NCBI RefSeq assembly: GCF_003315135.1
Contig: NZ_QNRK01000012.1
Span: forward strand, 62,001 to 126,000
From: Roseiarcus fermentans
GTDB lineage: Bacteria > Pseudomonadota > Alphaproteobacteria > Rhizobiales > Beijerinckiaceae
Length of the DNA stretch: 64,000 nt
Direction of reading: 5' to 3'
In this document: piece by piece, positions 7,760 to 51,089 of the stretch
Position numbering within the stretch: the stretch's first letter is position 1
Layout of the letters: each line of letters opens with the position of its first letter
Translations under genes and position numbers: made by a program
Notes under the pieces: model-generated
Told to the model about the DNA's origin: nothing
What the model saw: the letters and a program-made list of their open reading frames with translations, nothing else
The model's database searches: none

Positions 7760-7769
7760 GCGCGAACAG
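7760..7769 (-). promoter_or_regulatory. CTGTTCGCGC motif before the Stb-like operon
   Basis: The minus strand reads CTGTTCGCGCAGG, 116 bases before the ATG at 7644. It is one of about 12 sense-oriented copies preceding backbone transcription units. Confidence 0.45.
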
Positions 7770-7817
7770 CTTCGAGAAAATTTGCGGGCCTCGCGGCGCG
7801 TCTGAGCGCTACATCAG

Positions 7818-7879
7818 CGTTACGGCTCCGCCACACCGACTGCCGCTTCGCCACGGCTGCGTGACACATCCGCTACGGC
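7818..7879. repeat. Three phased direct repeats CGYYACGGC
   Basis: CGTTACGGC (7818-7826), CGCCACGGC (7849-7857) and CGCTACGGC (7871-7879) are spaced 31 and 22 bases apart, close to three and two helical turns. They sit upstream of the Stb-like operon and are candidate binding sites for its DNA-binding product or for relaxosome proteins. Confidence 0.4.
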
Positions 7880-7904
7880 ACGCGGCACGAAAAACAGCCT
7901 ACAT

Positions 7905-7947
7905 GGACCAATGCACCTTTGGTGCGGTCCGCCCGCTGGCGCGGGCG
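7905..7947. promoter_or_regulatory. Adjacent stem-loops, candidate oriT core
   Basis: GGACC-AAT-GCACC (7905-7917), TTT, GGTGC-GGTCC (7921-7930) folds into a bulged hairpin. CGCCCGC (7930-7936), TGGC, GCGGGCG (7941-7947) forms a second perfect one. Inverted repeats beside the nick site are usual for MOBF origins of transfer, and the relaxase gene starts 1.8 kb downstream. No nick sequence could be identified. Confidence 0.3.
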
Positions 7948-8175
7948 GGCGCGCTCCGGCGACAAAGAGCCGCAAATTGCGCCGCGCGCGGCAAGACCGG
8001 AAGCTTCTCGTCCGGCAAAACGGGCCTCTGCGGCCTTCAGGGAGGCTAAGGACCGCTTTTCCCGGCATGGCCGCTACCCGCCCGTCCTCAGCCCTTTCTG
8101 CGCGGGATCGTCCGGCCCGCTCTCCTGCCGGGTTCCGCCCGCGCCGCCGCGCGAAAAATCTCTCAGTTTCCGTTC

Positions 8176-8185
8176 CTGTTCGCGC
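8176..8185 (+). promoter_or_regulatory. CTGTTCGCGC motif before the BRO-N gene
   Basis: The sequence reads TTCCTGTTCGCGCAAC, 129 bases before the ATG at 8314, in sense orientation. Confidence 0.45.
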
Positions 8186-8313
8186 AACTGGCGCTGACGT
8201 TCGGATCACGGCCGCGGCGCCCGCGCTGCGGCCCGTGCGGCGGGAACAGCCGGGCCCGGCTCTTCCCGTCCGCTCTCAAACCGTACCGTCAACGCCTTCA
8301 CAAGGAACAGGCA

Positions 8314-9009
8314 ATGTCATTCGAAGATATGGCCGAATCGGCCCAGGACCCCAAGAACCTCCCGGTCGAATTCGAGTTCGACGCGACCCTCGTGCGCACG
8401 ATCGCGCGGGAAGGGCAGGCGTGGTTCGTCGCCAAGGACGTGTGCGACATCCTTGGAATCGACGACCCAAGCATGGCGGTCGATCGGCTCGAAGACGACG
8501 AGACGAGGAAAGCTAGTATTGGTACAACAGTCGGTCCCCGTGAAATGCTTATCGTGAGCGAGTCGGGTATGTACTCTCTGATCTTCACCAGCCGAAAGCC
8601 CGCAGCCAAGCGCTTCCGCAAATGGGTGACGAGCGAGGTCCTGCCCGCCATCCGCCAGACCGGACGCTATGTCGGCTACTCGGAGAAAGACCCCGATCCG
8701 ATCACCGTCTGGGCGAAGCTCCTCGGCGTTCGACCCTCAGACGTGATCGCCAAGGGGTTCGGCGCCGCCTATCTGACCGGCGGGCCGATCAATCCGTCCG
8801 ACTACCTCGTCCACAACCACCGCGTGCTGTGCCACCTGGTCACGAGCCTCGCGTCTTGCTGGCAGGGCCTGCACGCCGACGACTTCGACCCGCGCTGGTC
8901 CAGACGCGAATGGTCGGCGCAACAGTTCACCAGACAGCTCCAGAACGCCGACTGGCTCGCCAACCGATTCCTCGACACCGAAAGAGCACAGCCGACCTTC
9001 GTCGGCTAA
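8314..9009 (+). CDS. BRO-N domain protein (antirepressor-like)
   Basis: The 231-residue protein has an N-terminal BRO domain (about residues 20-125), with typical blocks WFVAKDVCDILGI, SGMYSLIFTSRKPAAKRFRKWV and TSEVLPAIRQTGRY. The domain is shared by phage antirepressors and baculovirus BRO proteins and binds DNA. The C-terminal half (about residues 130-231) is not recognised. It is the first plus-strand gene after the control region and lies upstream of the relaxase unit, so a regulatory role in transfer is plausible but unproven. Confidence 0.85.
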   Translation: MSFEDMAESAQDPKNLPVEFEFDATLVRTIAREGQAWFVAKDVCDILGIDDPSMAVDRLEDDETRKASIGTTVGPREMLIVSESGMYSLIFTSRKPAAKRFRKWVTSEVLPAIRQTGRYVGYSEKDPDPITVWAKLLGVRPSDVIAKGFGAAYLTGGPINPSDYLVHNHRVLCHLVTSLASCWQGLHADDFDPRWSRREWSAQQFTRQLQNADWLANRFLDTERAQPTFVG

Positions 9010-9076
9010 CGCCCCCACCTTTTCGCAGCCGTCGCCGAGCCCACCCTCGGCGACGATCGGTGACGCTCGCGGTTTC

Positions 9077-9086
9077 CTGTTCGCGC
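9077..9086 (+). promoter_or_regulatory. CTGTTCGCGC motif before the relaxase unit
   Basis: The sequence reads GGTTTCCTGTTCGCGCGG, 48 bases before the ATG at 9134. The same 16 bases up to CTGTTCGCGC recur almost exactly at 24333-24346 on the minus strand. Confidence 0.45.
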
Positions 9087-9133
9087 GGCTCGCCGAGAGA
9101 GTTGGGGTCCATCGAGACAAAGGTGCATCACCC

Positions 9134-9346
9134 ATGAGCAACAAGCCGTCGGAACCGTCCCTGGTCCGAGAGGTCGCGCGCCTGCGGAGTTCCTTCGCCA
9201 AGCTCTTGGAGAGCCAGACCACCCTGCACGCCTACGTCGCGAAACTCGGCGACGATCTCGAGACTCTGTCGGGCGAGGTGCGACGCATGCTCGAGGCGAT
9301 GAGGCCGGAAGCCGCCGAGCACGAAGCGCGCCGGCAGCTCCACTGA
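9134..9346 (+). CDS. Small coiled-coil protein, 70 aa
   Basis: A 70-residue, strongly helical protein (VREVARLRSSFAKLLESQTT, LGDDLETLSGEVRRMLEAM) with heptad-like spacing of Leu and Val, likely a short coiled coil. No family is recognised. It shares the C-terminal pattern of a methionine-containing helix ending in a PEAAEHEA-type tail with the next gene (MIEVLTPERPEQEG), so the two may be distant paralogues. It lies in the relaxase unit. Confidence 0.55.
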   Translation: MSNKPSEPSLVREVARLRSSFAKLLESQTTLHAYVAKLGDDLETLSGEVRRMLEAMRPEAAEHEARRQLH

Positions 9347-9403
9347 TCGGCGCTTCCGCGCGCGACTGCGCTTCCCTCCTGACCCAAAATCAAGGACGAT
9401 CTG

Positions 9404-9769
9404 ATGGCTCCGCGCCACGACACGAACGACGCCGCGCTCGAGCGCATCGCCGACGATCTCATTGGGCTCCGCGCGCTTCTCGACAAGATGGATCACGCCC
9501 AGGACGCCCTGCTTCAGAACGGCGAATCCCTCCAGGGACAGCTCGAAGCCCTCACCGGCCAGATCACCCACATGATCGAGGTCCTGACGCCCGAGCGCCC
9601 CGAGCAAGAAGGACCGTCGCTCGCCGACCTCCTCGCCCGCATCCTGACCCAGCAGTCGGGAATGATCGCCCTCCTGCGCGAAATCAGCGAAACCATGAAG
9701 CGCCTCGCGGCGCCGGACGGCGGCGCCTCTGAGGCGCACGCGCCTGCCAACGGTGCCCGTCACGCCTGA
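9404..9769 (+). CDS. Coiled-coil protein preceding the relaxase
   Basis: A 121-residue protein made of two helical blocks: ALERIADDLIGLRALLDKMD through QITHMIEVLTPE, and LADLLARILTQQSGMIALL through SETMKRLAAP. It is probably a cytoplasmic coiled coil. It ends nine bases before the relaxase ATG and is surely cotranscribed. A small relaxosome accessory protein is a reasonable guess, but it has no recognisable DNA-binding fold. Confidence 0.6.
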   Translation: MAPRHDTNDAALERIADDLIGLRALLDKMDHAQDALLQNGESLQGQLEALTGQITHMIEVLTPERPEQEGPSLADLLARILTQQSGMIALLREISETMKRLAAPDGGASEAHAPANGARHA

Positions 9770-9777
9770 CGCTGCCG

Positions 9778-12700
9778 ATGCTCAACTTCCGCAAAATCTC
9801 CGCCGCAAGCGACGGCGCCGCGATCCGCGCCTACATGACCCAGGACGAGCCGGAGCCCGAAGCCCTCAAGATCCATGGCGTCGCTCTCGATGGCCGCGAC
9901 CTCGAAACCGGAGAACGGCTCACGGCCTACTACACTGGCCGGGGCGAGCGGGCGAACTGGCGGCCCGACATGGACCCGCGCGTCGCGGCGGCGCTCGGGA
10001 TCGGAAGCCCCCGCACGAACCCCCGCAACGGCGATCTCGACGCCCTCTTCGAGGCCCGACGCGCCGACACCGGCGCGGACTGGAGCGAGCACGTCCGCAA
10101 GAACTCCGGCTTCGACTTCGTGTTCGCCCCGCACAAGTCCGTGTCGCTCGCCGCCGAGTTCGCCCCGACCGAAGCCGAGCGGCAGATGATCCGCAACGCG
10201 ATCCATGCCGCAAGCGACGATGCGCTTCGCTACGCCGCTCACGACCTGGGCTTCGCCCGCAAGGGGCACGCGGGGGAGAAGGGGGCGGAGGCGGGCGAGA
10301 TCGGCTGGGTCACCTTCGCCCATGACGCGGCCCGACCCACGGTCGCGGTCCAGAATGGGCCTGACGGGGCGACCTATCTCCTCGACGCGCCAATCGCCGG
10401 CGACCCCCACTACCATCTGCACAATTTCATACCGAACCTCGTCGTCACCGACGATGGCCGGGTCGGCTCGATCGACTCGAAGGCCCTGACCACGCACAAG
10501 GTGCCCGAATACGGAGCGTTCTTTCAGGCCCGCCTCGCCGACCGTCTGCGCGCGCTGGGCTTAAGGATCGGCCTCGACGCCGGCGGCGAAGCGGCCGTCG
10601 CCGTCGACATCCCCGAGCGCGCCGTCGCCACTTTCTCGAAACGCGACCGACAGGTGGTCGGCGACGCGCAACGCTACGCCCGTGAACACGCGATGGACTG
10701 GGACGAGCTTTCGCTCGAGCGCAAGAAGCAGATCCTGCACGAAGCGAGCGCCGCCGGGCGACTCGGCAAGACAAAGGAGGATGCCCGCTCGGTCTGGCGG
10801 GACCAGGCGGCCGCGATCGGCTGGACGCCGGCCTCCGTGCTCGGCGCCGCCGCGCTGACGGAGCGGACGGAAGCGGAGCGGCTCGAGGCTGCTTACGCGC
10901 GAGCCGCCGTCTCCCTCTCGGCGGAATTCCAGTTGAACGCCGTCCTCGACGCGGAGCGCCTGCGCGTCCATGCGGCGCGCGGCCTCATCGAAGCAGGGGC
11001 CGCGGGCGGACGGGACGACGTCGACGCGGTCGTGGCTCTCATCGAGAGGCGCGGCTTCGTCCATGACGGCCAGACCGTCACGTTGATCTTCGGCCTGCAT
11101 GAAGGCAGGGAGCGGATCAGCCACACCGAGCAGCTCCGTATCGAACAGAGCGTCGCTGCCATGGCCGGCAAGGCCGCCTGCGACCGCTCGGGGAACCTCG
11201 CCGACTCGGCGATCCGCGCGGCGATCGGGCGGGTCGAAGCCGACGATGCCGGCGTCCGCTTCTCGAAAGAGCAGCTCGCCGCCATCCATGCGCTCGGCGG
11301 CGGCGGAAATCTGTCCCTACTCACCGGGGTCGCCGGATCCGGCAAGACCACGCTCCTCAGGCCCCTTGTCGAGGCCTGGCATGAGGACGGCCGCACCGTG
11401 ATCGGCATGTCGACCGCCTGGCGGCAGGCGGACGCCCTCAAGGAGGCCGGCGTCGACGAGACCTGGGCGCTCCAGCCCCTCCTCAATGCTATCGACTCGG
11501 GAGAATTCCAGGCGGACGAGACGACCGTGCTCATCGTCGACGAGATCAGCCAGATCGGTCCGCGCCCGATGCTGACGCTCCTCGAGCTCCAAGCCCGGAC
11601 CGGCATGACCATCAGGATGCTCGGTGATCGCGAGCAGGTGCAGTCGATCGAGGCCGGCGATACGATCGCGCTCCTGAAACGCGTCCTGCCGAAATCCGCG
11701 ATGCCAGAGGTTCTGACCGCCGTCCGGCAGAAGCACGATCGCGACCGCCGGATCGCCGCCCTCATCCGCGACGCGAAGGCTGAAGCCGCGTTCGCGATGA
11801 AGCGGGAGGACGGCACGGCCAGACTCCTCGAGGGCGACACGGACCAGGTCGTCCGCCAGATCGCCGATCTCTACATCGAGCGCAACGACGCCCTGAAAGC
11901 CCAGGACACGAGCTATGGCGTGACGATCACGACGCTCACCAACGCGGAGGCCGCCGACATCAGCAGGGCGATCCGCGAGCGCCTCAGAGCCCGTGGCGAG
12001 ATCGGAACCGACGAGGCGACCTACAAGGCGATCACATATCGCGCCGACAAGCGGGAGCTGTTCGATCTCCCGATCGCGACCGGCGACCGGCTGCGCATGT
12101 ACCGCAAGACGGTCGCCGAGATCGACGGAAAGCGCGCCACGATCGGCAATAACGGCGACATCGTCGAGGTGATCCGCAAGACGGGCGCCGGCCTCGTCCT
12201 CAGGAACGCGCGCGGCCAGACGGCCGAGATCGACTGGAAGCGGCTCTCCGACCCGAAGACCGGCAGGCTCCTTCTCGGGTTCGGCCACGCCTTCACGATC
12301 GACGCCGCCCAGGGGATGAGCACCAAGGGCGAGCATATCAACGCCCTGCCGCACGGAACCGGGGCGACCACGGCCTTCAAGACCTACACGGCCGAGAGCC
12401 GCGCCACGGGCCGGACCTGGACCATGATCTCGAAAGCGGCCGTCCATGGCGCGGTTCAGCGCTCCCGGGCGCTCGGCGACGTCACCCCCATGACCGAGGA
12501 CGATCTCTGGAAGAAGGTGGCCAAAGACGCCTCTGCAAAGCCTTACAAGGCGCTCGCGCTCGACGTCGCCGGCAACGCGCGCCGTCAGCACGTCCGCGCC
12601 GTCGAGACGGGGCTCGCAAACCACGAACGGATCGAGACAGCCGCCGAGGCGCGACCCCAACTGGGGGACGAGATGAAGGCGGCGTGGCAGGCGGGGCTTC

Positions 12701-17719: not shown

Positions 17720-18754
17720 ATGGCGACGGCGCTGTTCAGTCGCGCTTCGGGTTTCGGCCCCCTGTTTGCTATCATCGAGGCCGAACACGGCGCTGAGGCG
17801 TTACGATGTCTGCGACGCGAGTCGGGCTTTGCCGCCGCCGCGCATGCGCCCTCCGCGCTGGTGCCGTTCGCCCTGATGAACCGGGTCTACAATAGCGCGG
17901 CGAAGCTCTGCGGCGACCCCCAATTCGGCGCTCGCGTCGGGCAGACCATTCGCCTTGAGGACTTCGGGCCGTTCGTCGAATATGCGCTTCACGGCGAGAC
18001 TCTCGGAGACGTCATCGCCCGCTCCATCGTCGCGCAGCCCGCCCACAGCAGTGAACTGATCCAGGATCTGCGCCTCCTTGGCGGTGAGGCGCGCTGGCGG
18101 ATTCGCTACCAGACCACCGCCGAGCCGACCGTCGAACACCATGCGCAACGGACGCTGATGCAAATGCTGGCCGGGGTCCGCCGCGCGCCAGGCGTGCAAG
18201 ACGCCGCAATAGAGATCCATGTCGCGGAGCCTTACGCGGCCGAAGCGCGCATCCTCGAGGATCGCACCGGCGTCAGGGTTCGGCCCCGCGCGAACGACTA
18301 TGAGCTGGCCTTCCCGGCGCGATGGCTGGGCGTACTGCCGCTGGCCATCGGTCTGCCGCCCGACCTGGCCGTCGAATGGGCGACGTATCCCGACCGGGCA
18401 TTGCCGCGCACGACAGCCGAGGCGGCGCTCGCCGCGCTCGACCTTCGCGACAAGCTCCCGGGCATCGGCGCGATCGCCGCCGACATCGGCCTGCCGAGCC
18501 GGACGCTGCAACATGCGCTTCACAAGGAGGGCGTGAGCTACCGCGAACTCGTCGGGGCGTTCCGTCTGCGGCGGGCGCTCCAGTTGCTGGCTACCACCCG
18601 AAAGCCGGTCGCCGAAGTGGCACTGCGCGCGGGCTATTCCGAGCCGTCGAGCTTCGCCCGCGCGTTCCGCTCACAGACGGGCATGACGCCGGGCCGCTTC
18701 CGGGAGGCGTCGCGGGCACCCATGCGGGCTCCACTGGTGCGCGCCTCAAGCTAA
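17720..18754 (+). CDS. AraC-family transcriptional regulator
   Basis: The 344-residue protein has an N-terminal ligand-sensing half of the arabinose-binding-2 type (about residues 1-190) and a C-terminal double helix-turn-helix (about 235-335), with the typical LQLLATTRKPVAEVALRAGY and SEPSSFARAFRSQTGMTPGRFR blocks. It is divergent from the sulfatase gene and so likely controls it through the palindrome at 17617-17640. The ATG has only a weak ribosome binding site. Confidence 0.9.
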   Translation: MATALFSRASGFGPLFAIIEAEHGAEALRCLRRESGFAAAAHAPSALVPFALMNRVYNSAAKLCGDPQFGARVGQTIRLEDFGPFVEYALHGETLGDVIARSIVAQPAHSSELIQDLRLLGGEARWRIRYQTTAEPTVEHHAQRTLMQMLAGVRRAPGVQDAAIEIHVAEPYAAEARILEDRTGVRVRPRANDYELAFPARWLGVLPLAIGLPPDLAVEWATYPDRALPRTTAEAALAALDLRDKLPGIGAIAADIGLPSRTLQHALHKEGVSYRELVGAFRLRRALQLLATTRKPVAEVALRAGYSEPSSFARAFRSQTGMTPGRFREASRAPMRAPLVRASS

Positions 18755-18808
18755 AGCCTTCTTCGAGCGCCCGCACCGGGGCAACCGCGGAACGGCCGCA
18801 AAAGGTCG

Positions 18809-20344
18809 GATATTGTTGAAAAACACGCTTGCTTCGCCGACTCGGCTCTGATTCAGTTTTCTCAATGAATCTGGGGCTTTCGCGATGATCGGCGAGCGGA
18901 AAGTGATGCAGGAGGCGCTGTTCTACGGCTTCAGCCTCGAGCGGCATGTCCCGGACAATCACCTGCTTCGCAAGATCGATCGGTTCGTCGACCTTTCGGA
19001 GGTTCGCGCGCATCTGGAGCCCTATTACAGCGAGACGGGTCGCCCTTCGATCGACCCCGAGCTGATGATCCGGATGCTGATCGTCGGCTACTGCTTCGGT
19101 ATTCGCTCCGAACGGCGGCTGTGCGACGAGGTCCACCTCAATTTGGCCTATCGCTGGTTCTGCCGCTTGGGGCTCGACGGCGACGTCCCGGATCATTCGA
19201 CCTTTTCCAAGAACCGCCACGGCCGTTTTCGCGACAGCAATCTCCTGCGCAAGCTGTTTGAGACCGTGGTCGCGCGCTGCATCAAGGAACGGATCGTGGG
19301 AGGCGAAGCTTTCGCGGTCGACGCCAGCATCATCGTGGCGGACGCTCATCGACGGCGAAGCGTCGCCAAGGGCGAAGATCTCGACCCGACTTCCAGTCGC
19401 GCAATCGCTGAATATCTGTCGGTCCTGGACGATGCGGCCTTCGGCGGGTCGACGCCGGTCGAGCCCAAGGTGATCTCGCCAACCGATCCGGCGGCCCGCT
19501 ACACCGCCTCGGCCAACTCCGTCGCCGGTTATGCCTACTCCGACAACTACCTCATCGATCTGAAGCATGCGGTGATCATGGATGTCGAGGCGACGACGAC
19601 CATTCGCCAGGCGGAAGTCGGCGCGGCGAAAACAATGCTCGACCGCACGGCCGAGCAGTTCGACGTCACCCCGTCGCGCCTGGTCGCGGATGGGGGATAC
19701 GGCTCGGCCGAGATGGTTGCGTGGCTGGTGGACGAGCGCGGAATCGAGCCGCATGTGAAACTGATCGACAAGGCCGAGCGCACGGACGGAACCTTCTCCC
19801 GCAGCGACTTCGCCTTCGATCCAGAGCGCAACGTTTATGTCTGCCCTGGCGGCCAAGAGCTCAGGAAGTACCACCGCGCTTTCGCCAAGCCCCGCGACGG
19901 GGTCACGAAAGCCGGCACCATGATTTACTTTGCGCGCAAGCAGGACTGCGAAGCCTGCGCGCTCAAGCCCAAGTGCTGCCCGAACGGTCCCGTACGCACA
20001 ATCGGCCGCTCCATTCATGAAGCCGCTCGCGACAAGGCCCGCGCGATCGCAGAGACCGAGGCCTACGCCGTCTCATGTCGCGAACGAAAGAAGGTCGAGA
20101 TGCTCTTCGCTCACCTGAAGCGCATCCTCAGGCTCGACCGATTGCGTCTCCGCGGCCCAAGCGGAGCAAAAGACGAGTTCCTATTGGCCGCCACAGCCCA
20201 GAATCTGCGGAAACTGGCGAAGCTGGCGCACTTCCCGGCACCGGTCTTCGCCACATGAAGCGGGGAGCCCCGCCTTTGCCTCGCTGACAGCCGCCCGCTC
20301 AAGCGTATCGCCGTCGGCCCCAGACGGGGTTTTTCAACAATATC
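18809..20344 (+). mobile_element. IS1182-like insertion sequence
   Basis: The element is 1536 bp. Its ends are a perfect 16-bp inverted repeat, GATATTGTTGAAAAAC (18809-18824) and its complement at 20329-20344. A 5-bp direct repeat GGTCG flanks both ends (18804-18808 and 20345-20349) and is probably the target duplication. The single gene inside (18885-20258) is an intact DDE transposase. The near-perfect ends and intact gene suggest a recent, possibly active insertion. Confidence 0.85.
18885..20258 (+). CDS. IS1182/IS5-group DDE transposase
   Basis: The 457-residue protein has an N-terminal DUF772-like helical domain (PELMIRMLIVGYCFGIRSER near residue 60) and a DDE catalytic core: Asp146 in FAVDASII, Asp268 in VADGGYGS and Glu404 in KKVEMLFAHLKR. 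A zinc-like cysteine cluster (CEACALKPKC) lies near 354-363, typical of IS1182 transposases. The gene is uninterrupted. An alternative start is the ATG seven codons downstream. Confidence 0.92.
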   Translation: MIGERKVMQEALFYGFSLERHVPDNHLLRKIDRFVDLSEVRAHLEPYYSETGRPSIDPELMIRMLIVGYCFGIRSERRLCDEVHLNLAYRWFCRLGLDGDVPDHSTFSKNRHGRFRDSNLLRKLFETVVARCIKERIVGGEAFAVDASIIVADAHRRRSVAKGEDLDPTSSRAIAEYLSVLDDAAFGGSTPVEPKVISPTDPAARYTASANSVAGYAYSDNYLIDLKHAVIMDVEATTTIRQAEVGAAKTMLDRTAEQFDVTPSRLVADGGYGSAEMVAWLVDERGIEPHVKLIDKAERTDGTFSRSDFAFDPERNVYVCPGGQELRKYHRAFAKPRDGVTKAGTMIYFARKQDCEACALKPKCCPNGPVRTIGRSIHEAARDKARAIAETEAYAVSCRERKKVEMLFAHLKRILRLDRLRLRGPSGAKDEFLLAATAQNLRKLAKLAHFPAPVFAT

Positions 20345-20590: not shown

Positions 20591-20746
20591 TCACCAGCGA
20601 TGATGACCGACCATATTATGGGCGACCTCGCGCCCGATCCCCCACCCGAATCCGTGTAGGACCGAGCGCATGAGGCCCGCGCCGTCATTCGGCGCGAAGA
20701 CCGCGATCGCCACCACGGCGAGGCCGGCGAGAAGGACGAGTCTCAC
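20591..20746 (-). CDS. Small membrane protein at the end of the dotL unit
   Basis: A 51-residue protein with one hydrophobic helix at the N-terminus (LVLLAGLAVVAIAVFAP) and a short tail ending HHRW. A GTG start at 20746 is chosen: AAGGAG lies 7 bases upstream and the GTG overlaps the TGA of the DUF2726 gene (GTGA). It has no recognised family. It closes the minus-strand unit 24274, dotL, DUF2726. Confidence 0.55.
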   Translation of the reverse strand: MRLVLLAGLAVVAIAVFAPNDGAGLMRSVLHGFGWGIGREVAHNMVGHHRW

Positions 20747-21371
20747 AGCGACGCTCCTTGCGGTGGAGGGAGGGTGTAGAGCCCGGCGCGCGCGCACAAG
20801 GTCCGGAGTTCATGGACCGAATAGGCGCGCTTTGCTGGCACTCGCAGGAGCGGCACTCCGATCTCGAGGAAGACCGCGTTCACGAAAGCGTCGCGCTGCC
20901 GGCGCTCGGGCAGGCCGTGGCTCCTGTCGTCGACCTCGATCGCCGCGACCGGCTCGAGGCTCAGGACGTCGCAGATCACGAAGTCGACGCTCTTCGCCAT
21001 CACCCCGTTCAACGCGAGCCGGCGCGCGGTGGGCCGAGCGCCGAGCGTGGGGGTCGCGAGCTGGCGAGGCGCACCTGGGCGAAGGCGCGGTAGTTGAGGC
21101 CCAGCGCCGCGTCGAGCGTCATCAGAAACGACTTCTCGTTGGCGGTCATGAACCGGCCGCGCTGGTAGCCGGCACGGGAGGCGGACGGCAGGTTGCCTGA
21201 GAGGAACACGGCGATCGCGATGAAGGCCGCGAGATAGAAGAGCGCCGCCGGCCGATCGAGAAGAGCCTCCAGCCCCTTCCCCCAGCCGGCGCCGAACGCA
21301 TGGACCACCGCGGCCAGCGTCCCGGTCATCTGCGCCGAGGCGTCGGAGAGTGCGTCGAAGAAGACGTTCAT
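20743..21371 (-). pseudogene. DUF2726 membrane protein broken by a single-base frameshift
   Basis: The first part (21371 to about 21060) encodes an N-terminal membrane helix (ALFYLAAFIAIAVFLSG) and the start of a DUF2726 domain (LTANEK-like: MTANEKSFLMTLDAALGL, then AFAQVRLA). The rest of the domain (MAKSVDFVICDVLSLEPVAA, IEVDDRSHGLPERRQRD) continues in the next frame to 20743. Reading back one base at about 21060 joins the two into one typical DUF2726 protein (a nuclease-like fold). No slippery heptamer is present, so a one-base deletion or sequencing error is likelier than programmed frameshifting. It lies directly after dotL. Confidence 0.75.
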
Positions 21372-24274: not shown

Positions 24275-24332
24275 CGCCTTCTCCTCGTCTCCCGGGCGCA
24301 GGGTTGCCCCATCACAACCATGCCGAGGGGCT

Positions 24333-24342
24333 GCGCGAACAG
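24333..24342 (-). promoter_or_regulatory. CTGTTCGCGC motif before the dotL unit
   Basis: The minus strand reads GGTTTCCTGTTCGCGCAG, 58 bases before the ATG at 24274 and right after the dotM stop. Confidence 0.5.
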
Positions 24343-24357
24343 GAAACCGCGGGCGCG

Positions 24358-29461: not shown

Positions 29462-29505
29462 GCTGGGCGGCTTCCTGTGCATGGGGGAGAGCTTCGGCGC
29501 GCCTC

Positions 29506-29514
29506 GCGCGAACA
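29506..29514 (-). promoter_or_regulatory. CTGTTCGCGC-type motif before dotD
   Basis: The minus strand reads CTGTTCGTGTTCGCGCGAGG, a partly duplicated motif, between the dotO stop and the dotD start. Confidence 0.4.
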
Positions 29515-29547
29515 CGAACAGACGTCGCGGCGTTCTTTCGGGCGGCG

Positions 29548-33220: not shown

Positions 33221-33625
33221 TTACTGGAACGTCACGACGCCGGCGGTGTTCGAAATCGAGGCCGCCGTGCCGGTGGCGGTCTCGGCCGCCTTGTTGATCC
33301 ACGAGCCGCCGGTGACGAGGAGGCCGCAGAGGACGAGACCGGCGGCGCCGGCCGCAACCTTGCCCGCTTCCCGGTTCTCTGGCTGACGCGACTGCCACAG
33401 GAACCACGCGCCGGCGACGAAGCAGATAAGCGCCCCAACGTACATCGCAGTCGAAGCCGCGGTGCCGCCGGCGGTCGAGAACTCCTGCGCCATCGTGCCG
33501 ATCTGGGCGCCGATGGTGCCCCCGGCCGCCTGCGCGAACGAATGGGCGCTGGCGACGACGAGCGCGCCGCCGAGCGCCGAGGCGCGCAGCAGCAAACGAC
33601 GAATCTTCAGCGAACGCTTTCTCAT
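33221..33625 (-). CDS. dotP: DotP/IcmD-type membrane protein
   Basis: The 134-residue protein has an N-terminal signal-like helix (ALGGALVVASAHSFAQA) and two membrane segments (MYVGALICFVAGAWFLW and AAGAAGLVLCGLLVTGG) with the QPENREAGK loop, typical of the small IcmC/IcmD family. It starts at the ATG 33625. The motif CCGTTCGCGC lies 80 bases upstream, so it begins the dotP-dotN-dotO unit. Confidence 0.8.
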   Translation of the reverse strand: MRKRSLKIRRLLLRASALGGALVVASAHSFAQAAGGTIGAQIGTMAQEFSTAGGTAASTAMYVGALICFVAGAWFLWQSRQPENREAGKVAAGAAGLVLCGLLVTGGSWINKAAETATGTAASISNTAGVVTFQ

Positions 33626-33704
33626 GAGGTTTGACTCCTGACGTTGACGACGAGGGCTCTCACGGGTCCCGTCCTGCCCTCGACGCCGAGACTCGTTCCC
33701 GCCT

Positions 33705-33714
33705 GCGCGAACGG
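33705..33714 (-). promoter_or_regulatory. CTGTTCGCGC-type motif before dotP
   Basis: The minus strand reads GATCTCCGTTCGCGCAGG (one mismatch to the core), just after a run of seven T and 80 bases before the dotP ATG. Confidence 0.4.
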
Positions 33715-33875
33715 AGATCAAAAAAACGCGGCGGCTGGAAAGAACTTTCGGGCGGGCCCGGTGCAATCGACCGGGGCGCTCGCGGCGCAGAACTCAAGAG
33801 GATCCCCGACCCTATCCAACGCCGCGGGTCGCCCCCTGACGTTTCCGGGCGACGCCCAGCGCTTGCCTCCGCTCC

Positions 33876-34415
33876 TCAGACGAACATCGCGATCAGCGCG
33901 TTGGTGATGGCGAGAATGTTGATCAGCATGATCCCGAACACGAACTGCACGACGCAGCCCATCTGACTCCGGTTCGCCTGCCCGCTGACGACAGAACGCC
34001 AGCTCATGAGCGCGAAGAACACGACCATGGCTCCGAAACTCTGGAAGAACGCCTGGAACAGCGTCACGACATTGACCAGCGTCGCGCTCGGCGTCGTCCC
34101 CAGCAATGTCGAGGCGTCGGGCGCGCTCGGCGGCGCGTAGCTCGAGAGCGCCGAGATCGAGGCGGTCACGCCCGACCCGGCGGTTGCGAGCGCCATGTTC
34201 AGGACCTTGTCGAAACTCGCGAACGCTCCGGACAGGACAAGCGACAGGACCGGAATCCACGGACGCCCTTCGAACGGGTTTCCGGGCTGCGACTGCATCC
34301 AGAATCCCCAGGCGGCGAACAGGAAGCACCAGAGCGCCGCCAGATAGGCGAAGGTCGGGACCAGAGTGGCGAGGGCCTCGCCGATCTGGCTCGCAAAATC
34401 GACAAGACCCTGCAT
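33876..34415 (-). CDS. dotE: DotE/IcmC-type membrane protein (TraQ/TraR-like)
   Basis: The 179-residue protein has four hydrophobic segments (FAYLAALWCFLFAAWGFW, LSLVLSGAF, AFFQSFGAMVVFFALMSW, VVQFVFGIMLINILAITNAL) and the LSW...G.a.r pattern seen in IcmC. It is an inner-membrane component of unknown exact role. The start lies 13 bases after the dotF stop, so the two are cotranscribed. Distinguishing DotE from DotV needs a profile search. Confidence 0.78.
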   Translation of the reverse strand: MQGLVDFASQIGEALATLVPTFAYLAALWCFLFAAWGFWMQSQPGNPFEGRPWIPVLSLVLSGAFASFDKVLNMALATAGSGVTASISALSSYAPPSAPDASTLLGTTPSATLVNVVTLFQAFFQSFGAMVVFFALMSWRSVVSGQANRSQMGCVVQFVFGIMLINILAITNALIAMFV

Positions 34416-36165: not shown

Positions 36166-36218
36166 GGTCGATGAGCTCCTCAAGACCGTCCCTGAAGCCT
36201 CGAGGATCGCGAGGCCCC

Positions 36219-36228
36219 GCGCGAACGC
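36219..36228 (-). promoter_or_regulatory. CTGTTCGCGC-type motif before dotF
   Basis: The minus strand reads CGGCGTTCGCGCGGGG, 9 bases past the U-tract of the terminator after dotG and 54 bases before the dotF ATG. Confidence 0.45.
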
Positions 36229-36236
36229 CGAACATG

Positions 36237-39188: not shown

Positions 39189-39559
39189 GTTCGGCAGAGT
39201 GCCAAGGCCCCGCGCGAACAGAAACGGAGTCGATCACGTTTTTCTCGGCCGGAGAAGGCAATCCCTGGCGTACGACCTGGAACAGAGTCTGCAGTGACGC
39301 CGAAGCGCCGAATGAGGCGCGTCCCGTCGTCGCCCGCACGCAGTAGGCCCCGCAACCTCTCTTCAGCAGGCGCGGAGGGCTGCTCAGGGAAACAAGGACG
39401 TGCATCGCTGAGCGGTCCCACGCCTCAGCGGACAGAGCAGGACCCCATGGTCGCGTCGCGGGTCGACGCCCCACGAGCCGTCAAGACGGATCGTGGCGCA
39501 GCCGGGGTCGGAAAGACCGCCGAGCGGCTCGTCGATCGATTCGGAACCGCTTCTGAAAC
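39189..39559. other. Intergenic region between dotI and the GcrA-like gene
   Basis: About 370 bases with no convincing coding frame. It contains the motif CTGTTCGCGCGG on the minus strand (39212-39221), the likely start region for the dotI unit, and several GC-rich short dyads without a U-tract. Nothing else is recognised. Confidence 0.5.
39212..39221 (-). promoter_or_regulatory. CTGTTCGCGC motif before dotI
   Basis: The minus strand reads GTTTCTGTTCGCGCGGGG, 24 bases before the dotI ATG. Confidence 0.5.
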
Positions 39560-40567
39560 TTAAGCCGCCATCGCGGTGACGTCGCTCATCGACCGTTCGG
39601 CGCGACGCTGCGCATATCGCGGCGCTGTCAGGAACTCGCGGCAGACCCAACGGCGGCCGCCGATCTCGCGGGACCACCAGAACGACCGGCGAAGCTCGAC
39701 GCACTGGCGCAAGATCGCTCCGACCCGTCGCTTCGCTTCCGCCGCGCGGCGCTGCACCGTCTCCTCGTCGAAACGATCGATGAGGTCATGGCGATCGCGG
39801 ACGATCTGGAGCCGGCTCAGCCGGGAATTGACGGCGCCGACCGTCAGATAGACGCCGAACTCCATCAGCATTCGCTTGGCGATCGTCGCGGCGCTGAGCC
39901 CGGCAAACCCGAGGATCGAAAACCGATCGTCCTTTTCGGCGTCCCGCCCGAGCTCCCATCGAGCGCCGACGGCGGCTGCCTCGCTCGGCGTCTCCCCCTT
40001 TGCCGTCCTTGGGGCCCAGAGACGCGAGAGGATCGGTTTGATGTTGAGCGCGGGCTTCCAGGGGAGCGGGGTCGTGCGGCATTCGGCGGCCGCACGGTCG
40101 GCGACGGTGTTGCGCGCACGCACGCCGAGACCGAGCCAGCGGCGCTTCCCCTGAACGCTCGACGCGGATCGCCTGAGCGCCTCGGCGATCGACTTCACCG
40201 AGACGTTGTCGAGCCACAGCGCGATCAGGCGGCGCACCTCCTCGACCGACCAGGGATTGGCAGACCCGACACGGCGGAGCGGTCTTTCGGTCGCCGCAGG
40301 CAGATCGAGCGCCGCGATCCGCTCGCGGACCAGATGTTCCTCGAGGCCCAGATAGAGCGAGAGCGCCGCCACGCTGTGGCCGGCGCTCGCCATGGCGATC
40401 AGCAGGCGGTCGACGACCGGCCTCGCCGCGACCGGCTCGGCCGGGGCAGCCAGAGACGAAGGGGCGAGCCTCGGGAGCGCCGGCATAAGCCGGAATTCTT
40501 CGGAGAGCACGGCGCCGATGGTGATGATCGAGGCGGTGGACAGCGTGAAGCCGGGAAGGACAACCAT
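39560..40567 (-). CDS. Two-domain GcrA-like DNA-binding protein
   Basis: The 335-residue protein contains a helix-turn-helix close to the N-terminal domain of the alphaproteobacterial cell-cycle regulator GcrA: NPWSVEEVRRLIALWLDNVS followed by VKSIAEALRRSASSVQGKRRWLGLG (about residues 104-150). A second related unit, AATIAKRMLMEFGVYLTVGA and VNSRLSRLQI, lies near 225-260. It is probably a transcription factor located in the gap between the two halves of the transfer genes. The ATG follows AGAGG by 6 bases. Direct repeats AAAACGTT lie upstream. Confidence 0.65.
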   Translation of the reverse strand: MVVLPGFTLSTASIITIGAVLSEEFRLMPALPRLAPSSLAAPAEPVAARPVVDRLLIAMASAGHSVAALSLYLGLEEHLVRERIAALDLPAATERPLRRVGSANPWSVEEVRRLIALWLDNVSVKSIAEALRRSASSVQGKRRWLGLGVRARNTVADRAAAECRTTPLPWKPALNIKPILSRLWAPRTAKGETPSEAAAVGARWELGRDAEKDDRFSILGFAGLSAATIAKRMLMEFGVYLTVGAVNSRLSRLQIVRDRHDLIDRFDEETVQRRAAEAKRRVGAILRQCVELRRSFWWSREIGGRRWVCREFLTAPRYAQRRAERSMSDVTAMAA

Positions 40568-40606
40568 GGCGAACCTCTTGCAGCAAACATGGCAATGATG
40601 TTCAGC

Positions 40607-40645
40607 AAAACGTTGGCGTCAAGATAGATCGCATGATAAAACGTT
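40607..40645. promoter_or_regulatory. Direct repeat AAAACGTTRGC upstream of the GcrA-like gene
   Basis: AAAACGTTGGC (40607) and AAAACGTTAGC (40638) are 31 bases apart, three helical turns, and 40-80 bases before the start codon. They form a candidate operator for a dimeric regulator. Confidence 0.4.
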
Positions 40646-40766: not shown

Positions 40767-41222
40767 CTATTTGTCCTTGGGCCTCCGGGAGGCTTTCTCG
40801 GCTTTGCCGATCTGGATCCGCGTCTCCTCATCCGCTTGCGCGAAGGCCTCAAAACGCGCGGTCAACTTCAAGAGCTCATCCCGACACTGTTCCAGTTGCC
40901 GGCCGACCTGATCCAGGTCGGACCTGAGCGTAACCACCATGCCTTCGAACCCCTTCGTCGTCACGCCGGGCGTGTCTTCCAGTAACGCAACGAGCGGAAC
41001 CTCAAGAGCTCTGGCGATCCTCTCCAGACTCATGAGTGTTACATTCGCGTATCCAGATTCGATGACCCCGAAGTTAACCGAGGAAACCTGCGCCAGATCT
41101 GCGAGTCGTTTCCCCGACAACCCCCTGTCTAGTCGGATCGTGCGGATGCGCCTTCCGACCGCCCGTTTCAACTCGTAATATTCCTCACTGTCCTCGTAAT
41201 CGTCGGTCCTCCGCTTCGCCAT
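40767..41222 (-). CDS. XRE-family transcriptional regulator
   Basis: The 151-residue protein has a canonical Cro/C1-type helix-turn-helix (about residues 20-80: VGRRIRTIRLDRGLSGKRLA, LAQVSSVNFGVIESGYANVT, LMSLERIARALEVPLVALLE) and a helical C-terminal part (LDQVGRQLEQCRDELLKLTA) that may dimerise. It is divergent from the TcpQ-like gene, with a palindrome just upstream. It lies directly upstream of the GcrA-like gene, so the two may form a control module for transfer. Confidence 0.9.
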   Translation of the reverse strand: MAKRRTDDYEDSEEYYELKRAVGRRIRTIRLDRGLSGKRLADLAQVSSVNFGVIESGYANVTLMSLERIARALEVPLVALLEDTPGVTTKGFEGMVVTLRSDLDQVGRQLEQCRDELLKLTARFEAFAQADEETRIQIGKAEKASRRPKDK

Positions 41223-41271: not shown

Positions 41272-41396
41272 GCTTCATCGCTCTACCAACTGCCGACGCT
41301 CCGCACGCTGATAAAGCGTACAACCGGACAACAATCAATACGACATGGTCTGCATTCGCGCCGCAGGGTCCTAACACTCACGGAACGGAGGACCAC

Positions 41397-41804: not shown

Positions 41805-41832
41805 TCCGATTGCCGCCGCCGAAACCGGCTCC

Positions 41833-41842
41833 CTGTTCGCGC
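41833..41842 (+). promoter_or_regulatory. CTGTTCGCGC motif before the 41891 unit
   Basis: The sequence reads GGCTCCCTGTTCGCGCAG, 48 bases before the ATG at 41891. Confidence 0.45.
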
Positions 41843-41890
41843 AGACGGCCCTCAGGCTCGGGATGCCACGCCTGTTGGAGACCCGTAGAG

Positions 41891-44047: not shown

Positions 44048-44079
44048 CGGTCGCCGCCCCACGCGAAGGACATCCGCAA

Positions 44080-45450: not shown

Positions 45451-45472
45451 TCCTACCCCCGCCCGACCCTCG

Positions 45473-45503: not shown

Positions 45504-45521
45504 CCCGTCGAACGGGCGACC

Positions 45522-45531
45522 CTGTTCGCGC
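45522..45531 (+). promoter_or_regulatory. CTGTTCGCGC motif before dotA
   Basis: The sequence reads GACCCTGTTCGCGCAGC, 19 bases after the terminator U-tract and 44 bases before the dotA ATG. Confidence 0.5.
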
Positions 45532-45574
45532 AGCTCTCGGTCATCCTCGAGCCGTCCGCGCTCGAGGCCGCCCC

Positions 45575-47917: not shown

Positions 47918-48516
47918 ACGGCTGGATCGGTTACGGTCTCGGTTATGACGCCGGACGCTCGGACGCGGAAAACTTGCGTCGCGACCGCGAAATCGTGGAC
48001 CGACTCTTTTATGGTGAGCGACCCGTCAAAGTCGATCAATCGTACATTGATCGCCTTCACGCCGCGCTGACTGAGGCCAGAGCGACGGCGGCGCATAACC
48101 ACAAGGTCGCGGATAGCCTCGAAGAAAAGGTCCACCAGTTCCGCAACGAGGCCCTCTTCTGGCGCGACGAACGACTCGCCCCCGCCGCGGCCGAGGCAAA
48201 TGCCCTGCGGCAGGAAAACGCCGCTCTCCGCGCCCGTTTTGAAGAGCGAAACCCCGACCTCGCCGCTGAGGAGGACGCACATCAGAAGACCCACGAGGAA
48301 AAGCAGAGCCTGCAATGCTTCCGCCTCGTCGCGACCGCGATCCTCGACGCCCTCCTCGCCGGGCGCGCCGATCGGTCAGAATTCGGCGAACTGGTCGCGA
48401 TGGTCAAGGAAGCCGCGGAAGTCATCGATCTGGGCGGCCTCTTTTTCGGCTTCAGCGAGACGCCGGAAAAGGCTGAGAGACTCGACGCCCTGACCGACGC
48501 CCTGGCGCGGCCCTGA
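47914..48516 (+). CDS. Coiled-coil protein downstream of dotA
   Basis: The 200-residue protein starts MNGWIGYGLGYDAGRSDAEN and has a long coiled-coil stretch (about residues 45-125: SLEEKVHQFRNEALFWRDER, EANALRQENAALRARFEERN). The ATG overlaps the dotA stop (ATGA), so it is cotranslated with dotA. It has no membrane segment. No family is recognised, but the N-terminal GYGLGYDAGRSD block looks conserved and may be a binding motif. Confidence 0.7.
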   Translation: MNGWIGYGLGYDAGRSDAENLRRDREIVDRLFYGERPVKVDQSYIDRLHAALTEARATAAHNHKVADSLEEKVHQFRNEALFWRDERLAPAAAEANALRQENAALRARFEERNPDLAAEEDAHQKTHEEKQSLQCFRLVATAILDALLAGRADRSEFGELVAMVKEAAEVIDLGGLFFGFSETPEKAERLDALTDALARP

Positions 48517-48527
48517 TTTCCGACGCG

Positions 48528-48537
48528 GCGTTCGCGC
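48528..48537 (+). promoter_or_regulatory. CTGTTCGCGC-type motif before the lipoprotein gene
   Basis: The sequence reads GCGTTCGCGCGGCC, 41 bases before the ATG at 48578, right after the stop of the coiled-coil gene. Confidence 0.35.
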
Positions 48538-48577
48538 GGCCGCCCGTCAGGATGAGCTCCGAACCCGGAGCCCATCC

Positions 48578-48883
48578 ATGAACCGCCTTCTCCCGATCGC
48601 CCTCCTTGTCCCGGCCCTCGCCGGTTGCGCCCAGGGCAACCTCCGCACCCCCTCGAGCTACGCCGCGCTAGCCCCTCCCACCGTCCGAAACCCGTGGTAC
48701 GATCCGTACGCGCCTTACGGATCGGCCAACGCGACTTGGCGGCCGCCGGCGTATGACGTGCAGCGGACGATCGTGAAGCCGGCCGAGCCCGCCTCGCAGG
48801 CCTCCCGCCCTGACTACGAGGGCGCGGAATGGGCGACCGGGGCCGGCGGAGGGTCGGCGCTGAAGCCGCCCGGAACGTTCTGA
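48578..48883 (+). CDS. Small lipoprotein of the transfer region
   Basis: The 101-residue protein has a short lipoprotein signal with lipobox LAGC (Cys17), then a proline- and tyrosine-rich tail (PWYDPYAPYGSANATWRPPA). It is probably anchored in the outer membrane and could act like DotK or other accessory lipoproteins of the T4B core. The family is not recognised. Confidence 0.7.
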   Translation: MNRLLPIALLVPALAGCAQGNLRTPSSYAALAPPTVRNPWYDPYAPYGSANATWRPPAYDVQRTIVKPAEPASQASRPDYEGAEWATGAGGGSALKPPGTF

Positions 48884-48976
48884 CGCTGAGCTGTCCGTGG
48901 CGGCATGCGGAAGGGGCGCCGCATCCCAGGCCCGTCCGTTTTGCCCCCTCAGGCCTGCTCGTGGTAAAAGGCCGCT

Positions 48977-49420
48977 ATGGGCGACACCAGTTCCACCACC
49001 TATCAGACTGATTTCTACGCCTGGGCGAACGAACAGGCCGCGCTCCTGCGCCAGGGACGCCTGAGCGAGGCGGACATCGCCAACATCGCCGAGGAAATCG
49101 AAAGCATGGGGAAGACGGAAAAGCGCGAGCTCGTGAGCCGTCTGACTGTGCTGCTGGCGCACCTGCTCAAGTGGCAGTATCAGCCAGGACGTCGCGGCCC
49201 GTCATGGGAGGTTACGATCACCAACCAAAGGCGCGACCTTGCTGTTCATCTCAAAGACAATCCGAGCCTTAGATCAAGACTGCCCGAAGCCGTGGAGTAC
49301 GCCTACGCCAATGCGCGCGGAGAGGCTTATGCGGAAACGGGTTTGCCCAAGACGATGTTCCCGCCGAGCGCCCCTTGGACTTTCGACCAGATGATGGACC
49401 AAGATTTCTGGCCCGAATGA
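48977..49420 (+). CDS. DUF29 family protein
   Basis: The 147-residue protein matches DUF29: the N-terminal YQTDFYAWANEQAALLRQGR, LSEADIANIAEEIESMGKTE, and the VLLAHLLKWQYQPGRRGPSW block are signatures. The family is common in cyanobacteria and methylobacteria, often in many paralogues, with unknown function. It is a likely passenger gene between the lipoprotein and the convergent IcmV-like gene. Confidence 0.9.
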   Translation: MGDTSSTTYQTDFYAWANEQAALLRQGRLSEADIANIAEEIESMGKTEKRELVSRLTVLLAHLLKWQYQPGRRGPSWEVTITNQRRDLAVHLKDNPSLRSRLPEAVEYAYANARGEAYAETGLPKTMFPPSAPWTFDQMMDQDFWPE

Positions 49421-49426
49421 CATCCC

Positions 49427-49945
49427 TCAGCGCGGCCAGAAGCCGGACGGCGCGCTAAAAAATTCCCGAACCGAGACCTTTCGACCGAGCCGAATCTGAT
49501 AGTTCTCGAGCCCGAACAGGAGCGCGAGCAGGAAGAACACCGCGCAGGCCGGGGTGAACTGCAACGCCGTCACCGTCGCGTTCACAGTCCAGCTCATGGT
49601 CGCGAGCCGATAGAGCCAGGCGACGAAGAACATCGCCCCGAGCCCCAAAAAGATCCACGCGTAGCGCGCCGTCGATCGCCGCCGGCGCGCCAGCGTGTCT
49701 TCGAAGCGGCGGCGCGCCTGCCCGTGCAGGAAGGCCATCGCTTCGAGGTCGAACGCGCCCGTCTCGTCGAGCCGAACCTTCGACGTCCGTCCGTCGTCGC
49801 GGGACCGGAGCCGCTCGAGGTCTCGCCGAAGCGCGACGTAGCGCTCGCGGAGCTTGAGCGAGAGAAGGGGCGACAGGGCCGGCTCGCCGAGACGGCGCAG
49901 AAGGCGCCGCCGAACCGGATCGCGCTCGTCGCTATCGCGAGACAT
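49427..49945 (-). CDS. IcmV/TraX-like membrane protein
   Basis: The 172-residue protein has a basic N-terminal region of about 90 residues, then two transmembrane helices (YAWIFLGLGAMFFVAWLY and FTPACAVFFLLALLFGLEN) and a short tail ending PSGFWPR. This two-helix layout next to dotA and the DsbC-like gene suits IcmV/TraX of T4B systems. Its start overlaps the stop of the upstream DsbC-like gene, so they form a unit. The family call is by layout and place. Confidence 0.6.
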   Translation of the reverse strand: MSRDSDERDPVRRRLLRRLGEPALSPLLSLKLRERYVALRRDLERLRSRDDGRTSKVRLDETGAFDLEAMAFLHGQARRRFEDTLARRRRSTARYAWIFLGLGAMFFVAWLYRLATMSWTVNATVTALQFTPACAVFFLLALLFGLENYQIRLGRKVSVREFFSAPSGFWPR

Positions 49946-51035
49946 TGTGCGCCTCCTCGACCTCGGCGATCAGCGCATCCCAATTTTTCGGTATGCCGTC
50001 GATCTCGCCCGCGCTCCCGTCCGCCTTGCGCCAGATGAGCGTCGGCGTCCCGCGAAGTCCGATCGCGTCGGCGATCCGATTGTTCATCTCGAGCCGTGCG
50101 GGCGCCTCGGGCGACGCCGCCAGGCGAAAATTCTGGTGATCCCAGGCCTCGGCCATCTTCGATGGCGGTTGGCTCAACAGGGACTCCGCCGATCGCGTGC
50201 TCTGCCCGTTGTCCTCGTAGTCGAGGATCGAGATCGGCACGACCGCCACCTGGATGCGGCCAGCCGTCACATAGGGCTTGAGCGCGTCGAACGCCCGCAC
50301 GGAATAGCTGCAGAAGGGATCGACGATCATCCACAGCCTCGGCGCGGCCGGATCGCCGATGAGGCCGAAGGCTGCGCGCTCGACGCCGAGCAGCGCGTCG
50401 GCCCGGGCGACCGCCTCGACCGACCTCGCCCCATCCTTGTCGACGACGACGGTTGGGATCGCGCCGTCGATCTTCGACACCTGTTCGCGGGTCAAATTCT
50501 TGCCGGTCGCGTCCCACATCACGCCGGCGATCGTCGCCCGGCCGTCCGGCGTCGCGTAGAGCACCTGAAACTCTTGCCCGTTCCGCAGATAGAGCCCGCG
50601 CAGCCCGTGCGTTTCGCCGAGCTCCTTCACCTGCCCCGCCGCCAACGTCATCAGCCTGTCGACCGGAAGATCGAGCTGTGGGCCGCCGACGACGGCCTGC
50701 CCATCCGGAGCGATCTGCAGGATCATGAATTGCTCGCCGCTTCGGGCGCTGACGCTGCGGAGCCCATGCGCCTGGCCGAGATCGAGCAGCTGAGCGCCGG
50801 TCGCGGCGATGTGCTTCAGGACCGGCACGGCGTCGATGTCGCTCGGCGCGGCGAGCGCAAGCAGCGCATCTGAGCCCGATGCGGTTGCGGTCGAGGGCGC
50901 GGACTGGACCGCGCCGTCGACCGCAGCGTTGCTTGGAGCGCCTGGGCCGGCGGTCGGGTTGTCCGAGCCGGCGAAGGCGAGGGTGGAAAAAGCGATCAGG
51001 CTGACGCCGACCGGCAGAACACAAGAGCGCCGCAT
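49932..51035 (-). CDS. TrbB/DsbC-like periplasmic thioredoxin-fold protein with CxxS site
   Basis: The 367-residue protein has a signal peptide, two tandem repeats like DsbC/DsbG N-terminal domains (HGLRSVSARSGEQFMILQIA and HGLRGLYLRNGQEFQVLYAT), and a C-terminal thioredoxin-like domain with cis-Pro motif RGTPTLIW. The active site reads DPFCSYS (Cys242, Ser245), lacking the second cysteine of CxxC. IncI TrbB is a disulfide isomerase that helps T4SS proteins fold. A CxxS site would favour isomerase or disulfide-trapping over oxidation. It may act on the cysteine-rich 42307 product and DotH. Confidence 0.82.
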   Translation of the reverse strand: MRRSCVLPVGVSLIAFSTLAFAGSDNPTAGPGAPSNAAVDGAVQSAPSTATASGSDALLALAAPSDIDAVPVLKHIAATGAQLLDLGQAHGLRSVSARSGEQFMILQIAPDGQAVVGGPQLDLPVDRLMTLAAGQVKELGETHGLRGLYLRNGQEFQVLYATPDGRATIAGVMWDATGKNLTREQVSKIDGAIPTVVVDKDGARSVEAVARADALLGVERAAFGLIGDPAAPRLWMIVDPFCSYSVRAFDALKPYVTAGRIQVAVVPISILDYEDNGQSTRSAESLLSQPPSKMAEAWDHQNFRLAASPEAPARLEMNNRIADAIGLRGTPTLIWRKADGSAGEIDGIPKNWDALIAEVEEAHNVSR

Positions 51036-51079
51036 GCGTTTCGAACTCCATGTCGTCCCGGACGACGCTATGAAGGTTC

Positions 51080-51089
51080 CGCGCAAACG
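51080..51089 (-). promoter_or_regulatory. Degenerate CTGTTCGCGC-type motif before the DsbC-like gene
   Basis: The minus strand reads TTTTTCGTTTGCGCGG, with one change in the core, 45 bases before the ATG at 51035. Confidence 0.3.

Follow-up and report, generated by a model that had tools for sequence, protein, structure and literature searches.

A rigidly spaced promoter-like element at the transfer genes of alphaproteobacterial dot/icm plasmids, with a GcrA-like protein as its candidate reader

Do the transfer units of an alphaproteobacterial dot/icm plasmid share one kind of promoter, and which protein would read it? The question is raised by a stretch of 64,000 nucleotides from Roseiarcus fermentans (contig NZ_QNRK01000012.1, here C12, positions 62,001 to 126,000 of the forward strand; the whole stretch is called the window), in which an original prediction had listed about 12 intergenic copies of a short motif, in sense orientation to the next gene and at nearly every transfer unit. 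The results support the motif as the upstream component of a two-part, promoter-like element found at transfer units and some other units. Comparison with related plasmids shows that a conserved, strictly spaced, -35-poor promoter-like element marks the predicted transfer regulon in a family of plasmids from two orders. A GcrA-like protein encoded in the window is the best candidate reader of its box. No description of the element or of a plasmid GcrA relative was found in the literature searched, nor an account of dot/icm-type conjugation control in Alphaproteobacteria.

Anatomy of the element in the window

All 12 listed copies were recovered within two bases of the positions first given, intergenic and in sense orientation, about 21-126 bases from the next start codon. 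The gene calls came from a home-made caller, which missed at least two paralogous proteins; some starts may be wrong, and the distances share this error. The word CTGTTCGCGCRG is exact at six sites (7758-, 9077+, 24331-, 39210-, 41833+ and 45522+), carries one mismatch at 8176+ and 33703- and two at 29504-, 36217- and 48528+, while site 51079- is degenerate and reads GTTTGCGC. In the eleven sites aligned on the core, GTTCGCGC is invariant. All eleven also carry an A at core +21, 11 bases past GTTCGCGC, and a T at core +25, 15 bases past it; the degenerate site 51079 fits as well, giving 12/12 window sites, with A and T each contributing only about 16-17% of the base composition here. The original prediction had missed this invariant pair, and likewise a variant copy with 12-base spacing at 41354+, ahead of the 41397 gene.

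In the -10 hexamer of sigma-70 promoters, the second and last positions (A-11 and T-7) matter most and form the housekeeping pattern. The conserved A and T are the predicted A-11/T-7 signature of such a -10 element, present at every window site as in a housekeeping sigma-70 promoter. This assignment places the box at roughly -30 to -23, with ten bases between it and the -10 hexamer. At -35 the C12 copies have a weak TTYC. The box is not palindromic and contains no GANTC. Its general form is RTTCGCRC followed after 11 bases by A-N3-T; in Acetobacter and Komagataeibacter the box is GGTCGCAW-like.

A chance origin of the upstream copies was rejected by shuffles and antisense counts, obtained in 39 upstream regions (5,511 bases) of called genes with 300 dinucleotide shuffles. 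The pattern GTTYGCGC-N11-A-N3-T occurred 12 times in sense and never in antisense, with 0.017 expected; the box GTTYGCGC gave 14 sense and no antisense copies (0.71 expected) and CTGTTCGCGCRG six and none (0.007 expected). The proposed check of shuffled intergenic sequence and orientation thus came out far above chance and in sense only. Over the whole window, the 12-mer with up to two mismatches was not enriched (47 copies versus 39.1 expected; 11 of 100 shuffles reached 47).

Recurrence of the element and the genes behind it

Further intergenic copies on C12 stand at 39257+, 59862- and 61415-, and another at 33953+ lies inside a called gene of doubtful start. C12:59862(-) and C12:61415(-), corresponding to window -2138 and -585, belong to two secreted-looking paralogues sharing GLPVQVHPTFPEPGLPA, each behind a promoter element. 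The genome contains another dot/icm contig, diverged from C12 (C35, 72,595 bp; loci L008-L011), which has its own GcrA-like and XRE genes and nine GTTCGCGC-N11-A-N3-T sites, with CG after the box at all nine, where C12 mostly has RG. Genome-wide, TGTTCGCGC-N11-A-N3-T was matched 31 times, with 12 matches on C12 and five on C35, and the reversed pattern four times; the two contigs hold 17/31 matches on about 3.5% of the bases.

Related plasmids were recruited via relaxase, DotL and DotO, and 25 of 41 loci were retained after short loci and near-copies had been dropped. In a de novo search for any 8-mer located 11 bases ahead of A-N3-T (eight shuffles per locus), words of the TTCGC-, GTTTGC- or GTCGC-type exceeded the shuffles in 20/25 loci and in 4/5 named plasmids, so that the suggested comparison of related plasmids confirmed a recurring element. 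L018 is nearly identical to the plasmid that holds the window, and the genera of L019 and L024 are those of the named plasmids L012 and L016; these three loci were left out of later counts.

When RTTCGCRC alone was fixed and sites within 200 nucleotides of a start were collected from 29 replicons or loci, 95 sense sites faced 12 antisense sites. Of the sense sites, 91% have A at +11 and 86% have T at +15; the corresponding values are 24% and 23% for 195 copies in coding sequence, and 25% and 17% for the antisense sites. Control words gave six sense and nine antisense sites (reversed) or five and four (permuted). Of 145 RTTCGCR sense sites outside C12 (23 replicons), 106 have A-N3-T at a spacing of exactly 11, while the other spacings from 6 to 17 hold 0-8 sites each. 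A TTGACA-like -35 element at the usual distance of 16-18 bases was not detected in these 106 sites (2.58 of 6 matches versus 2.34 in shuffles); the -10 hexamer averaged 2.67 of 6 matches, two of these being fixed by the selection. In 38-kb stretches of Cupriavidus pMTS3 and Burkholderia pBVIE03, the element was found in 0/17 and 0/20 upstream regions, and no GcrA-like gene was present. In pMTS3 (L089, 9607-10643), a helix-turn-helix gene stands directly ahead of dotI with no GcrA-like gene between.

The genes behind the element were counted wherever the gap upstream of them measured 35 bases or more, using a site threshold chosen by the authors, so that a few weak words are included. Most consistent is dotI, with a site in 20/21 loci; its window copy (39196..39224, minus strand) has the -10 hexamer CACTCT and a start codon 7 bases past the -10 T. 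The 578-aa dotF-position gene follows with 22/25 loci (36203..36231, minus strand, -10 GATCCT, directly 3' of a terminator-like stem), then the 134-aa gene at 33625, upstream of dotO, with 22/27 (33689..33717, minus strand, GAGTCT), dotD with 14/19 including some weak words (29490..29518, minus strand, GAAGCT) and dotA with 5/6 (45519..45547, plus strand, CATCCT). Sites also precede the DsbC-like gene in 4/5 loci (in the window the degenerate copy at 51065..51093, minus strand, TAGCGT), the 101-aa lipoprotein gene in 3/3 (48525..48553, plus strand, CAGGAT), the 41891 unit in 4/5 (41830..41858, plus strand, CAGGCT) and the first gene of the dotL unit in 3/3 (24317..24345, minus strand, CATGGT). 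The 139-aa gene has a site in 4/5 loci and the 135-aa divergent gene in 7/16; ahead of the 41397 gene, with a site in 7/16 loci, the window carries the 12-base variant ATTCGCGC-N12-ACACT (41354..41378, plus strand). The remaining window elements precede the Stb-like operon (7744..7772, minus strand, box GTTCGCGC, -10 TACGCT), the BRO-N gene (8173..8201, plus strand, GACGTT) and the relaxase unit (9074..9102, plus strand, GAGAGT).

Genes that are mostly operon-internal provided the background: dotO 0/9, dotB 0/7, dotH 0/8, dotL 1/8 and a 185-aa gene 1/14. No site was found ahead of the GcrA-like gene in 23 loci, and the XRE gene had one in 3/15, all three poor words. The claim of a motif at nearly every transfer unit therefore holds for the transfer units but does not extend to these two regulatory genes. 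A box-less sigma-70-like match, TTGACG-N16-CATCAT (40595..40622, minus strand), lies 28 bases ahead of the GcrA-like start; it is the sole consensus match in 33-51.5 kb, a weak result with 0.9 expected by chance.

The start codon lies either 6-7 bases past A-N3-T (dotI, nine loci) or mostly at least 21 bases on. Measured from the -10 T, the called starts behind 77 strict sites lie at 6-7 (seven sites) or at 21 and beyond, with none from 8 to 20; two negative distances suggest wrong start calls. With looser words, dotI shows the short distance in 9 of 21 loci. Such a cluster is expected if transcription starts about 7 bases past the T, with dotI leaderless or nearly so. A leader element is disfavoured because the dotI start codon sits so close to the -10 hexamer. 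Of the earlier suggestions, a plasmid-wide regulon or promoter fits the data, whereas a leader is unsupported, the box lying upstream of the predicted start. An RNA leader or riboswitch was likewise unsupported, given the dotI distances in nine loci and both Rfam matches of the window lying elsewhere. As to intrinsic terminators, a strong terminator-like stem was found directly upstream of the site at 36217 and a stem with a T-run upstream of 45522, in a scanned stretch with 16 terminator-like sites versus 11.2 in shuffles.

The candidate reader and competing explanations

The candidate reader and activator is a 335-aa GcrA-like protein (39560..40567, minus strand). It matches Pfam GcrA with E=1.4e-5 (26.0 bits, just under the 26.9 cut-off), and four of six family members match at E up to 0.5; the NCBIfam GcrA model gives weak matches in three of the six (best E 0.0044). 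When the family profile was compared with the PDB, Caulobacter GcrA structures were the only solved relatives below E=0.01 (7ye1 with E=2.4e-7, another with 1e-5). An hhalign comparison with 20 chromosomal GcrA-type proteins reached 97.3% over 58 columns, covering the DNA-binding domain only; the protein thus contains a GcrA-type DNA-binding domain. By the calls made here, the plasmid proteins comprise about 275-495 aa, with further conserved regions.

Relatives are located beside dotI in 33 of the 34 loci having at least 9 kb on the dotI side; seven shorter loci fall outside this count, and many Komagataeibacter loci are near-copies. Among 289 genomes of the class, 39 match the family profile at E up to 1e-8, and the inspected matches mostly resemble chromosomal GcrA. 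Only the window's genome matches beyond profile positions 61-224, the others being limited to the region of the DNA-binding domain. Sixteen plasmid records matched the GcrA-like protein in tblastn, all from Roseomonas, Methylocella, Beijerinckia, Lichenicola or Methylocapsa, at a sensitivity that misses distant relatives such as those of Komagataeibacter. In phages, tblastn found no relative. The adjoining gene, conserved next to the GcrA-like gene across loci, encodes a 151-aa XRE/Cro-type regulator (40767..41222, minus strand; Pfam HTH_31 E=1.8e-7, HTH_3 1e-6), a candidate controller of the activator. Inverted repeats between the XRE gene and its neighbours yielded nothing decisive.

Both regulators occur nearly everywhere, so that co-occurrence cannot choose between them. 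Of these two proteins, both named in the original prediction, the GcrA-like one is favoured by the conservation of its recognition-helix stretch (mean identity 54% versus 34% for XRE in 23 loci). Covariation with the box was analysed in those plasmids that have at least three sites and carry T as the second base of the box. Where the conserved K/L of the recognition helix is followed by a basic residue, box position 7 is mostly G (10/10 plasmids); where the following residue is non-basic, it is mostly A (9/10; Fisher p 1.2e-4, no kinship correction). The table excludes four Komagataeibacter/Acetobacter loci with sites, as well as L023, which has two sites. This association is suggestive of a GcrA-like reader.

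With moderate confidence, an activator-dependent sigma-70 promoter family is proposed to define the conjugation regulon of alphaproteobacterial dot/icm plasmids, with the GcrA-like protein as reader. From the sequence patterns we infer use of the housekeeping sigma factor, activation, the GcrA-like reader and XRE as an upstream switch. A monomer of the plasmid protein would occupy the non-palindromic box, which lies in the spacer 3' of the would-be -35, and would hold the housekeeping sigma factor at a poor -10 element, replacing the missing -35. The activator gene, without a box like its XRE neighbour (weak exceptions aside), would be switched separately, perhaps by the XRE protein. Switching on this single activator would then jointly induce the genes for the secretion apparatus, coupling and the relaxase, along with some stability and accessory genes.

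Phage T4 middle promoters are similar in having, in place of a -35, a box near -30 combined with a -10 element; their box, which MotA/AsiA reads, is positioned a few bases farther upstream. Caulobacter GcrA is a protein of 173 aa with two domains (PMC7403470). It is reported to contact sigma2 and, as a monomer, to bind DNA downstream of the -35 (PMC12340889), and it uses methylated, essentially palindromic GANTC sites, which can activate promoters from upstream and downstream positions (PMC7987155). The DNA-binding domain is homologous and the box here has the matching place downstream of -35. The box is, however, not GANTC, its spacing is rigid, and the plasmid protein is longer and without a recognisable sigma-interaction domain. 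MerR-type activators also act between -35 and -10, but their promoters have both hexamers at non-optimal spacing (PMC12340889), while here no clear -35 is present and the box is non-palindromic. For another plasmid, genes were proposed as regulators of a homologous transfer system; the accessible part of that report mentions no shared promoter box (PMC6112013).

The same sigma-70 promoters might instead be read by the host GcrA or by another host or plasmid factor, which is rather unlikely. A chromosomal GcrA is encoded in the genome (C53, E=2.6e-44, with further matches), and the plasmid protein has no recognisable sigma-binding domain; however, the methylated GANTC sites of GcrA (PMC7987155) are unlike the box. 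The element is moreover concentrated on C12 and C35, and the stretches of the two dot/icm plasmids without a GcrA-like gene also lack it. Very unlikely is a box that serves as operator of the conserved XRE repressor and overlaps otherwise active promoters. Plasmid transfer genes are often repressed and the GcrA-like gene has a conserved XRE neighbour, but a non-palindromic box at rigid spacing from the -10 element argues against an operator. The poor -10 and the missing clear -35 suit activation better than repression, and a nearly constant box contrasts with a highly variable XRE recognition stretch.

A bipartite element with rigid spacing would also be formed if the box were the -35 element of an alternative sigma factor, and one of six scanned GcrA-like members weakly matches sigma-70 region 4 (E=0.024). 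This reading is highly improbable: A-11/T-7 is the housekeeping pattern, ten bases from box to -10 hexamer are short for ordinary sigma spacing, and no Sigma70_r2 match was found on C12 or C35, all nine matches of the genome being on other contigs. It is barely conceivable that a Q-type antiterminator loads at the box, binding the -35/-10 spacer and letting polymerase pass downstream terminators. The lambda Q site has a similar spacer position and one site here lies directly after a strong terminator-like stem; that stem, however, is upstream of the promoter, not downstream, and no antiterminator family was detected among 20 window proteins scanned against Pfam.

Several observations weigh against activation by the GcrA-like protein or against the promoter model itself. 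A sigma-interaction C-terminal domain was not found: the profile alignment ends after the DNA-binding domain, and the C-terminal pattern of GcrA is not visible. The plasmid protein may contain a domain of that fold in diverged form. Three box sites occur in L022, a locus in which no GcrA-like gene was found, and the near-universal presence of both regulators has been noted above. The covariation is broken by the four excluded Komagataeibacter/Acetobacter loci, which combine a basic residue with A at position 7 and differ at position 2; Methylosinus L016 and Beijerinckia L014 are mixed (four G and three A each), L014 being the non-basic exception. The association mostly splits Hyphomicrobiales from Acetobacteraceae and reflects few independent events. 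In the de novo test, no box-type word above shuffles was obtained from L022, L023, L029, L040 and L047 (5/25), nor was the level exceeded in Beijerinckia pBIND01 (three matches, shuffles up to four), where sites are visible. Hyphomicrobiales sites show a weak TT at -35/-34 (63%, 52%; 83 sites), which is lacking in the Acetobacteraceae groups; in two of these three groups the box is extended upstream as CC. The two plasmids without the element are betaproteobacterial, differ in more than the regulator and were represented by their 38-kb stretches only. Looser word lists add distances of 14, 18 and 19 at other genes, blurring the gap between 8 and 20.

From sequence alone, this promoter class allows operons to be mapped, start sites to be predicted and a regulon to be outlined in many plasmids. 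The predicted regulon takes in accessory genes, e.g. the two secreted-looking paralogues, and the element points to the plasmid-encoded GcrA relative as candidate regulator. If this is true, the DNA-binding domain of a methylation-reading sigma cofactor of the cell cycle was recruited as the plasmid's own master switch. The chances are judged about even that this family of conjugative plasmids encodes a sigma-70 cofactor of its own, in which a GcrA-type DNA-binding domain no longer depends on the methylation signal and reads a plasmid-specific spacer box at a dedicated -35-less promoter class, with box and helix drifting together between lineages.

Neighbouring features of the window

Between the relaxase and dotL units, an AraC-type regulator gene followed by a DDE transposase gene (window 17720-20258) has no promoter element and is insertion-like. 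Downstream of dotL, two adjoining short open reading frames (window 20743-21371) match successive parts of DUF2726, one of them weakly (E=0.05), and may be the pieces of one gene that was split or frameshifted. Window 55493-55691 and 61364-61571 match the cobalamin riboswitch (Rfam RF00174) with 108 and 114 bits, near the genes that the original prediction had called B12 genes.

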